From: Haloarcula mannanilytica
GTDB taxonomy: Archaea; Halobacteriota; Halobacteria; Halobacteriales; Haloarculaceae
Length of the DNA stretch: 64,000 nt
Direction: 5' to 3'
Assembly (NCBI RefSeq): GCF_005406125.1
Contig: NZ_BIXZ01000001.1
Span: 1,178,001 to 1,242,000, forward strand
The notes under the pieces were generated by a model, which worked only from the letters and a program-made list of their open reading frames with translations, was not told where the DNA came from and made no database searches. Position 1 is the first letter of the stretch; each line of letters opens with the position of its first letter. Position numbers and translations under genes: made by a program. Positions 56,582 through 59,500 of this stretch are shown piece by piece.

Positions 56582-58219
56582 ATGGCGGAAGATCCCTACG
56601 AGGTTGGCCGCGGCGGCAGCCGAGCGTTCTGGGCCGATTCCGTCGCCGACACGATCGAGGCGCGGGACCCGGACGAGCCAGTCGTCATCAAGGGCGGCGT
56701 CTCCCCCTCGGGCGTCCCCCACATCGGCCACTTCAACGAGATAATGCGGGGCTACTACGTCGCCGAGGCGCTGCGGGACCGCGGCCACGAGGTCCGGCAG
56801 GTGTTTACCGCCGACGACAAGGATCGCCTCCGGGCGGTCCCCCGCCAGCTCGCAGACCTCGACTGGAACGTCGTCGGGCTCGGCGAGGTCGACGCCGGCG
56901 CACTCGGGCGGAACCTCGGGAAGCCGTACACGGACATTCCGGACCCCTTCGGCTGCTGTGACTCCTACGGCGCGCACTTCACGACGCTCCTGCGGAAAAG
57001 CGCCGACCTGGTCGGCGTCGACGTGGAGTTCGTCTCCAACACCGAACTGTACGCCGACGGCGAGTTCGAACCCGTAACGCGGCGCGTGCTCGAACGCGCC
57101 GACCGGGCCCGCGACGTGCTCGCCGAGTACCAGAACAAGGTCGACGACGACTACGTCCCGTTCCTACCCCAGTGTGCCAACTGCGGGAAGATCACCGAGG
57201 GCGTCACGGCCGTCGACCTCAACGCCGGCGAAGTCGACTACGTCTGTGCAGATGTCGAGGCCGGCGACCAGACCATCGAGGGCTGTGGCCACGAGGGCAC
57301 GGCGACGCTCCGGGACGGGAAGCTCCCGTGGCGCTTCGAGTGGCCCGCCCAGTGGGAGATTCTCGGCGTCGACTTCGAGCCGTTCGGGAAGGACCACGCC
57401 GAAGGCTCCTGGCCCTCCGGCGAGGACGTGGCCGAGAACGTGCTGGATATCCAGCCGCCTGTGCCGATGGTGTACGAGTGGTTCACGCTCGACGGCGAAC
57501 CGCTCTCCTCGTCATCGGGCAACGTCATCACCGTCGACGAGGTGCTCGACATCCTCGAACCGGAGGTGTTCACGTACTTCTTCGTGAAGGACCCGCGGAA
57601 ACAGCGGGACTTCTCCGTCGAGAACGTCGACCAGCTCGTCGACGAGTTCGACCGGTTCGAGCGGCGGTACTTCGGTGAGGCAGACGGGAGCGAAGACGAG
57701 ATGGAACTCGCCGAGCGGGCCTATCCGATGGTCGTCGACGAGCCCCGCCCGGAGCGCGTTCGGATTCCCTACACGTTCGCGGCCGTTCTCGGAATGGCCG
57801 ACGACCCGGAACTCCGGGAGGAAATCGCCCGCAGGGAAGGACACATCCCCGATGACGCGCCGGAATGGGCCGTCGAGCAGGCGCTTGCCCGCGTCGAGCG
57901 CGCCCAGGAGTGGGCCAGTCTGACGGACAACGAGTTCAACTACGAACTCAAGCGAAGCGAGATACCCGACGTGTCCTTCGACGACGCGACGGCGGCCGCG
58001 CTGGACGAACTAGCTGATTTCATTGCTGAAGGCCACGACGGCGAGGCGATTCAGGCCGAAATCTACGAAACGGCCAAACGAAACGACATCGACATCGGCG
58101 AGTTCTTCTCGGCCGGCTATCAGCTCCTCTTTGACGACACCGAGGGTCCGCAACTCGGGACATTCATCGCAAAGCTCGACCGGGAGTTCGTCGTCGAGCG
58201 CTTCCGCCGGAACGAGTAA
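56582..58219 (+). CDS. lysS: Lysyl-tRNA synthetase, class I
   Basis: The 545-residue class I enzyme is the archaeal type, unlike the class II LysRS of most bacteria. The HIGH-type motif is PHIGHFNE and the KMSKS-type loop is SSSSGNVIT. A four-cysteine zinc knuckle (CANCGKI, then later Cys residues CADV and GCGHEG) lies near residues 198-240. It starts on the base after the pyrH stop, so the two are co-transcribed. A strong hairpin follows the stop. Confidence 0.95.
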   Translation: MAEDPYEVGRGGSRAFWADSVADTIEARDPDEPVVIKGGVSPSGVPHIGHFNEIMRGYYVAEALRDRGHEVRQVFTADDKDRLRAVPRQLADLDWNVVGLGEVDAGALGRNLGKPYTDIPDPFGCCDSYGAHFTTLLRKSADLVGVDVEFVSNTELYADGEFEPVTRRVLERADRARDVLAEYQNKVDDDYVPFLPQCANCGKITEGVTAVDLNAGEVDYVCADVEAGDQTIEGCGHEGTATLRDGKLPWRFEWPAQWEILGVDFEPFGKDHAEGSWPSGEDVAENVLDIQPPVPMVYEWFTLDGEPLSSSSGNVITVDEVLDILEPEVFTYFFVKDPRKQRDFSVENVDQLVDEFDRFERRYFGEADGSEDEMELAERAYPMVVDEPRPERVRIPYTFAAVLGMADDPELREEIARREGHIPDDAPEWAVEQALARVERAQEWASLTDNEFNYELKRSEIPDVSFDDATAAALDELADFIAEGHDGEAIQAEIYETAKRNDIDIGEFFSAGYQLLFDDTEGPQLGTFIAKLDREFVVERFRRNE

Positions 58220-58224
58220 CGCCG

Positions 58225-58260
58225 GAGTAAGGTGGCCTTACTCGGCCGTGAAACGGCTTT
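58225..58260 (+). terminator. Terminator hairpins after lysS
   Basis: GAGTAAGG (58225-58232) pairs with CCTTACTC (58236-58243) across a 3-nt loop. A second stem GCCGT/ACGGC (58245-58257) follows and is trailed by TTT. Six nt after the lysS stop, this is a good transcription terminator candidate. Confidence 0.6.
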
Positions 58261-58274
58261 AAACGAACGCTGTT

Positions 58275-58354
58275 ATACGGGTTATTGTAGGTTATTTTCG
58301 GATTACGCCGACCCGGGTCGGCGGACACCGGTAAATTGCTACAATAATCCGTAT
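58275..58354. repeat. 80-bp nested inverted repeat with one shared dyad centre
   Basis: The outer arms ATACGGGTTATTGTAG (58275-58290) and CTACAATAATCCGTAT (58339-58354) are complementary over 16 bp with one mismatch. The centre holds a perfect 18-bp palindrome, CGCCGACCCGGGTCGGCG (58306-58323). Both have their centre at 58314.5. The element lies between convergent lysS and the small zinc-finger gene, and its right end touches that gene's stop. It could be a bidirectional terminator, a miniature mobile element or a protein-binding site. Confidence 0.75.
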
Positions 58355-58530
58355 CAGTGGGACTGTTCCTGCGTGTCGATCCGCTCGAACATCGGTCCGA
58401 GTCGCTCGTCGTAGCATTGTCGGCAGACGTACGCATCGAGTACGCCGGCCTCGCTATGCGTGTGAATCACGGTATGGACTGTCGCGTCAAACGGGACCGT
58501 CTCGCCACAGATACCACAGGTTTCTGGCAT
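58354..58530 (-). CDS. 58-residue zinc-finger protein
   Basis: This short minus-strand gene begins MPETCGICGETVPFDATVHT and ends ERIDTQEQSH. CGIC (5-8) and CRQC (36-39) form a two-knuckle zinc site, and histidines lie between them. Haloarchaea have many such small zinc-finger proteins. Its stop codon lies in the right arm of the 80-bp inverted repeat. Codon use and GC-rich third positions fit a real gene. It is likely to bind protein or nucleic acid. The role is unknown. Confidence 0.7.
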   Translation of the reverse strand: MPETCGICGETVPFDATVHTVIHTHSEAGVLDAYVCRQCYDERLGPMFERIDTQEQSH

Positions 58531-58603
58531 CGCCGGACACTAGCTTGTGATACGTTCTCACAGTACATAGAATGGGCGGTTCGTGCAGCGACACCAGTTC
58601 GTC

Positions 58604-59500
58604 TCAGGGAGCGCGCGGGACCACGAGCACGGGTACATCGACTGTTCGGAGCAGTTGTGAAGTGACACTGCCCAGTAACTGGCGTTTCAGGTTCGAACGG
58701 CCGTGTGACCCCATGACGACGAGGTCGATATTTCGGTGGGAGACGTACTCGCGGATACCGGCAGCGACGCCGTCAAACGAGTCAGTCCGTGCTACGGCGG
58801 TTTCGACCGACACATCGGGCGCTGTCTCTTTGAGGTCGTTGGCGACCGAATCAACGGATTCCCGCCCGCTTTCCTCCAACCGTTCGATGAACGTCTCGTT
58901 CAATCCACCGGCGTTGAACGCTCCGCCGGCGGCCTGGATGTTGACGACATTGAGGACGTGGACCGCCGCGTTGTATCGCTTCGCGACGGCTGCGCCGTGT
59001 CGCGTCGCCGTTTCGGCGTTCGCACTGCCGTCAGTCGGGACGAGTATCCGCGAGTAGTCAAATCCGTCTGCTTCCGACTGCCTCTCGCCCGAGACAACGA
59101 GTACGGGGACCGCAGTTCGGTGCAACACCTGTTCGGTGACACCGCCCAGAAGTCGCTTCCCGAGGCCGGACATCCCCTGCCGACCGAGGGCGATGAGGGA
59201 TGCGTCGGTCTCCCGTGCGTACTCGTCAATCTGTACGCTCGGTTTTCCCTCAAGCAGTGCCGTCGTGACGGGCTGGCCGATATCGGCGGCGAGCGACTCG
59301 ATCTCATCGAGGACTGACTCGCCGTGGTCCCGGAGTTGTTCGGTCTCGTCGTCGGTTCGCGTGAGCGAGAGTGTGCTCTGTTTGACGACGTAGACAGCCT
59401 CGACGGTCGCATCGAAGTCCCGGGCCAGATCGAGGGTACGACGCGCGGCCGCCGTGGACTCGTCGCTCCCGTCAACGGGAAGCAAGATGTGGTCGTACAT
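58604..59500 (-). CDS. Tandem-domain universal stress protein
   Basis: The 298-residue protein has two UspA domains. Domain 1 (about 1-140) starts MYDHILLPVDGSDEST and has a GRQGMSGLGKRLLGG loop. Domain 2 (about 150-298) starts YSRILVPTDGSANAE and has GSHGRSNLKRQLLGS. Both loops keep the G-2x-G-9x-G pattern of nucleotide binders, though domain 1 ends in Gly where Ser/Thr is usual. ATG 59500 is preferred over an upstream GTG. Confidence 0.9.
   Translation of the reverse strand: MYDHILLPVDGSDESTAAARRTLDLARDFDATVEAVYVVKQSTLSLTRTDDETEQLRDHGESVLDEIESLAADIGQPVTTALLEGKPSVQIDEYARETDASLIALGRQGMSGLGKRLLGGVTEQVLHRTAVPVLVVSGERQSEADGFDYSRILVPTDGSANAETATRHGAAVAKRYNAAVHVLNVVNIQAAGGAFNAGGLNETFIERLEESGRESVDSVANDLKETAPDVSVETAVARTDSFDGVAAGIREYVSHRNIDLVVMGSHGRSNLKRQLLGSVTSQLLRTVDVPVLVVPRAP

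Follow-up and report, generated by a model that had tools for sequence, protein, structure and literature searches.

Between the convergent genes lysS and a small minus-strand gene of Haloarcula mannanilytica lies a near-palindrome, and its regularity raises the question of what it is and how it came to be there. An earlier note had proposed a miniature inverted-repeat element, a bidirectional terminator or a site for a dimeric or multimeric protein. We argue that this DNA, at 58276-58353 of the window (the whole stretch of 64,000 nucleotides that was analysed), is a miniature inverted-repeat element (MITE) that would have been mobilised in trans and inserted on a stop codon with duplication of a TSA triplet, probably by a transposase of the IS630 group; we give this model as a whole a probability of about 0.85. 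The features of the locus are as follows.

56582..58219, plus strand: lysS, class I lysyl-tRNA synthetase, 545 aa (Pfam PF01921, E 2e-101)
58273..58275, no strand: left copy of the target duplication, originally TCA and TTA today (one of three bases unlike the right copy)
58276..58353, no strand: MITE, 78 bp, near-palindromic (absent in 14/14 alignable relatives, which have a single TCA there; 18 copies in its own genome)
58276..58290, plus strand: left terminal inverted repeat (TIR) TACGGGTTATTGTAG (match to the family consensus TACGGATTATTGTAG)
58294..58301, plus strand: left subterminal box ATTTTCGG, offset 19-26 (MITE and IS630 ends have it at a conserved place)
58306..58323, no strand: central perfect palindrome CGCCGACCCGGGTCGGCG, 18 bp (in the corresponding helix 3, both-side changes at 8/8 pairs in 59 elements)
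58328..58335, minus strand: right subterminal box TTTACCGG, offset 19-26 (placed as on the left, and conserved between MITE and IS630 ends)
58339..58353, minus strand: right TIR, TACGGATTATTGTAG in minus-strand reading (family alignment and end profile)
58354..58356, minus strand: right copy of the target duplication, TCA, the TGA stop codon of the 58-aa gene (sequence and relatives)
58354..58530, minus strand: gene of a 58-aa CxxC-motif protein, with the insertion target at its stop codon (region conserved in 14 relatives)

The sequence bears out the symmetry that the earlier note had described, namely 16-bp outer arms with one mismatch (58275-58290 and 58339-58354) and a perfect 18-bp inner palindrome sharing their centre at 58314.5. 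A repeat search joined them into one 40+40 arm pair with 75% complementarity that spans 58275-58354, the arms between the outer repeat and the core being mostly complementary as well. The palindrome stands, but the limits of 58275 and 58354 first given to the element do not: relatives place its ends at 58276 and 58353, and the outermost A and T are dropped because both belong to the flanking triplets. What remains is short and non-coding (78 bp, no gene inside), with TIRs of 15 bp that differ by one mismatch between the arms. Hairpins had also been claimed on the lysS side, where the repeat search does find an inverted repeat, at 58219-58249. It directly follows lysS and is kept in relatives with paired arm changes (GTAAGG/CCTTAC, GTAGG/CCTAC), suggesting a conserved native lysS hairpin. 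On the other side, the 58-aa protein, which has CxxC...CxxC motifs, is kept in relatives and is by appearance a small zinc-finger protein; its ORF had no Pfam match. The gene of a universal stress protein with two Usp matches (58607-59500, minus strand) adjoins the locus.

Comparison with relatives provides a reading of how the element arrived. Flanks of 29 relatives were tried, 15 of which have no recognisable right flank and are uninformative; the other 14, all Haloarcula, align over the junction, and every one of them lacks the element and has one TCA where the window reads TTA-element-TCA. Because these relatives keep a single TCA and no element, the locus is read as a single insertion with a 3-bp target duplication, the left copy having mutated since, and the flanking triplets of the window copy remain identical at two of three bases. 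Duplication of TA, as in classical IS630 elements, is rejected at this site, where the TCA of the relatives has no adjacent TA. Read on the opposite strand, the duplicated TCA is the TGA that ends the 58-aa gene, and its right copy is still the stop. The insertion hit this codon and the duplication restored it, so that the element entered without coding harm and persisted.

The element is one of many. Its own genome (4.2 Mb, 33 contigs) holds many dispersed relatives with sharp ends, of which 18 are two-ended copies. Matches at E 0.01 turned up in 18 of the 32 genomes searched within the genus, and a TIR pattern gave 210 hits in these 32 genomes against 3 for a reversed control pattern. Across the Haloarculaceae, the TIR occurs with at most one mismatch in 41 of 146 genomes and in 12 of 22 genera; in Halomicrobium katesii, with two mismatches allowed, the TIR counts are 169 forward and 177 reverse. 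The earlier note had held that the lack of any other copy would count against a mobile element; with dispersed copies, empty sites in all alignable relatives and a single TCA in each of them, pointing to a 3-bp target duplication, its miniature inverted-repeat candidate has come through. That the palindrome is a MITE, one copy of a dispersed haloarchaeal family rather than a lone terminator, is strongly supported by these comparisons of sequence. Some insertions are inherited across species, because six Haloarcula genomes have one old copy in common at the same site.

Plasmid records with copies are mainly from Haloarcula and Halomicrobium. The phages searched for the element had no match; 23 exact TIR matches in viral contigs, none with a matching partner end and nearly all in low-GC DNA, were judged to be chance. 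Within the family, a subfamily has TAGTG tips in place of TACGG, usually in both arms of one copy (seven loci), and parallels the TAGTGATTA ends of one IS630 set described below. Many TACGGAAAGTTGTAG and TACGGACGGTTGTAG ends occur in H. katesii, which suggests further high-copy subfamilies and a recent burst. In another genus (eight loci) the arms end in TTGTAC or TTGTAA and not TTGTAG, a further subfamily. One H. katesii copy (L188:1042-3156) is split by a composite insertion sequence of about 2 kb, which we take to be ISH11-like. A literature search, with subscription journals and ISfinder outside its scope, brought up no paper that we recognised as describing this MITE family.

We extracted 101 distinct elements, 50-110 bp long, from the loci collected. 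Read on one strand, 73 of them have identical 3-bp flanks (TGA in 44, TCA in 29); in 2000 shuffles of the partners the number averaged 36.8 and never exceeded 52. Palindromic flanks, the prediction for an extended palindrome, were found in one. Because TSA was part of the TIR patterns for the genus, the family and H. katesii, the search itself selected to some degree which letters the duplication has, but the contrast between 73 direct and 1 palindromic flanks is unaffected by this. No 4-bp direct repeat abuts any of the 101 elements, and the target consensus around the duplicated triplet is GnC-TSA-GnC.

Stop codons are common targets. In the genome of H. mannanilytica, 14 of the 18 copies have their triplet precisely at the TGA stop of an ORF that is 40 codons or longer and reads into the element, against 17-30% on stops for control TGA-containing sites in the same loci, and pure chance is rejected on this comparison. 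Pfam places ten of the 14 ORFs in families, QueC, SDF, HIT, MCP signal and Radical SAM among them. With a 60-codon threshold, 52 of the 101 elements lie on stops, whereas in these loci TGA does so in 12% and CTGAG in 18% of cases. Over 300 contiguous kb of H. katesii, with genes predicted by a simple codon scorer, there are 23 copies: 9 on stops, 11 intergenic and 3 overlapping predicted genes. None of the 23 lies inside a predicted gene, though 56% of weighted sites are coding. When the 3 overlapping copies are left out, 17 of 20 are on a stop or at most 100 nt after one (34.5% expected, p 5e-6); with these added back, 17 of 23 are at or near gene ends (p 1e-4). The excess on stops themselves was weighed against two target profiles. 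One built from 26 off-stop elements predicts that 17.8% of tolerated H. katesii sites are stops, against 9/20 (p 0.005) or 9/23 (p 0.013) observed; one that includes stop-sited copies gives p 0.06-0.13. Copies of IS630 elements are on stops more rarely than the MITEs (4/31, Fisher p 1e-4). Target sequence together with loss of harmful insertions may suffice to explain the docking, and special targeting of stop codons is no more than a candidate reading.

A second property of the family is its hairpin. As RNA, each strand of the window copy folds better than any of 200 dinucleotide shuffles (z -5.6 and -5.8). An alignment of 59 dereplicated elements, 76-81 bp long, has both-side changes at 22 of 31 pairs, and 123 cells compare with 37 in shuffles (0/500 as high), counts that relatedness among copies inflates; structures slid out of register score 0.03-0.10 versus 0.23 for the true pairing. 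Palindromy is kept while the letters change, the central helix included, because the two sides have changed together at so many pairs, and upkeep of that helix goes beyond what the ends in common with insertion sequences require. The covariation could stem from selection for the hairpin, and equally from one arm serving to correct the other. The old insertion found in six Haloarcula genomes has few changes and no clear compensatory pattern. Rfam gave no hit at E 1 across 57900-58700 of the window.

A bolder reading is that the family has evolved to dock on TGA stops and carries 3' ends from gene to gene as a module, with a branch of IS630 that duplicates TSA spreading it. The GnC-TSA-GnC target would fit haloarchaeal gene ends of the GAC-TGA kind, the 3-bp duplication would remake the stop, and the T-rich covarying hairpin would provide a new 3' end for the gene docked on. 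We consider this unlikely, if worth keeping in mind. We also consider it unlikely that the window copy is a bidirectional 3'-end signal maintained by the host, its hairpin and T-rich arms terminating or protecting the transcripts of both convergent genes. The concentration of non-overlapping H. katesii copies at gene ends and the arm covariation speak for such a signal, as does the TTATTTTC that the window copy places downstream of lysS; in a Haloferax study, transcripts terminate at T stretches that end at C, and termination at one hairpin put to the test was 59% (PMC7237163). Yet the element is mobile and absent in 14/14 alignable relatives, and therefore no required terminator. Moreover, lysS already has its own inverted repeat upstream of the element, selection against coding and promoter insertions would equally place copies near gene ends, and the six orthologous copies at another locus lack clear compensation.

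If the palindrome moves as a MITE, a transposase must bind its ends, and the mobiliser is probably a haloarchaeal group of the IS630 family with TSA duplications and TA-tipped ends. A DDE transposase would bind both ends through the TACGG tip and the TTTACC box at 19-24, excise the element and insert it at a palindromic GnC-TSA-GnC, duplicating the central TSA; we infer that this is cut-and-paste movement by an IS630-group enzyme. An interrupted H. katesii element with TACGG tips and TCA duplications contains DDE_3 remnants that assign it to IS630, and further IS630 elements came from DDE_3 searches and a genome scan (best 80 of 228 relatives). Their end sets are TACGGTCGTGCG...TTTTTACCGG, TAGTGATTA...TTTGC/TTTACC, TACTATCGGC and TAGGGATCAG, and the elements have TAC or TAG tips and TSA duplications. 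Where TSA was required on both sides and identity not demanded, the triplets are identical in 6 of 7 IS elements (the exception is L237); the 33 of 80 loci among the best 80 of 228 are conditioned on a matching TSA duplication and give no rate. The candidate partner proteins are IS630 transposases (NF033545, E 1e-47 and 2e-71; PF13358, DDE_3).

The ends themselves were compared with TSA-TA-starting sites in the same loci as controls. At positions 19-26 of the MITE end profile, 22 of 37 distinct IS ends exceed the 95% control (p 4e-13), whereas at positions 6-18 the likeness is weak (5/37); because of this difference, MITE and IS630 ends are taken to have the bipartite layout in common but to differ in the middle. 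None of the haloarchaeal IS630 elements collected carries the full MITE end TACGGATTATTGTAG. A search for an autonomous element with the exact MITE TIR yielded, at 40 places in Haloarcula (mostly partnerless hits), only short or truncated elements or nothing, and only short elements at eight more places, in two genomes outside that genus. At the eight DDE_3 hits of the H. mannanilytica genome we recognised no IS630 end of the TSA group; there the mobiliser may be lost, unassembled or unrecognised, and DDE_3 presence does not track MITE presence (21/41 versus 40/105 genomes, Fisher p 0.19). A second IS630 group, with TATAGTA ends, does not match the MITE ends.

A different transposase, for example of the IS5 superfamily, would make the likeness to IS630 ends a convergence. 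The TIR middle is unlike every IS630 end seen, DDE_Tnp_1 transposases are common in these genomes, and IS5-superfamily targets can be TNA, which the palindromic target with its TNA core resembles. We nevertheless judge this improbable: DDE_Tnp_1_2 had no hits in 5 MITE genomes, 30 DDE_Tnp_1 loci and 20 further stretches held, with two exceptions, no TACGG-tipped element with TSA repeats, and the IS630 elements match the MITE in tip, box offset and TSA. Of the exceptions, one is an interrupted element that proved to be IS630 and the other is an IS nested in a MITE.

The assignment to MITEs rests on dispersed copies (18 in the own genome, some 170 TIRs on each strand of the H. katesii genome) and on target duplication (identical TSA in 73/101; two of three bases and empty sites for the window copy). 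RUP and Correia are palindromic bacterial MITEs linked to IS630/Tc1, short and near genes, with a probable IS630-type partner; they duplicate TA, whereas the present family duplicates TSA. Among the closest known systems is the haloarchaeal IS630 TSA group (for example H. katesii, 1142 bp; Halovenus salina, 1122 bp), which resembles the MITE in duplicating TSA, in having ends tipped with TA and in the TTTACC/TTTGCC box at offset 19-24. It differs in encoding a transposase, in its length of about 1.0-1.15 kb, in its TIR middle and in being seldom on stop codons (4/31). The IS630/DDE_3 transposase is a candidate partner only, and both the MITEs and this IS group have TSA where an element derived from IS630 would be expected to have TA, as the Tc1/mariner rule is summarised in PMC6875036.

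Prokaryotic MITEs are covered in general terms in the review PMC10969869. Those of Haloquadratum walsbyi, compared here by their description in PMC3119063, are likewise non-coding, with TIRs and target duplications, and moved in trans; a difference is that, of 31 events in which they hit other mobile elements, 30 involved PATEs or IS605-type transposons. The Haloquadratum SMR elements of the same description are alike in having 80-110 bp, prominent inverted repeats and no transposase, but they are described there as lacking target duplication, and we reject assignment to them for a family that duplicates TSA. Finally, a palindrome of the REP or PATE type, which a single-strand transposase (HUH/Y1) would move, would also be short, palindromic, extragenic and present in many copies, but is scarcely credible given true TIRs and a 3-bp duplication in 73 of 101 elements, and derivation from PATEs or IS605 is rejected likewise, since PATEs have neither terminal repeats nor duplications in the account of PMC3119063.

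The identity of the palindrome is in our view settled: it belongs to a dispersed family with a sharp target rule, for which a probable mobiliser group can be named. That this is a new family of an ordinary kind, the MITE, with the unusual habit of docking on stop codons with a 3-bp TSA duplication, is well supported. By duplicating TSA, a group within the IS630 family breaks with the superfamily's TA rule, a departure open to biochemical testing. The empty sites of relatives are natural deletion mutants for asking whether the insertions alter 3' ends. The restored stop codon illustrates a harmless route by which mobile elements can get into dense genomes, at the ends of genes.
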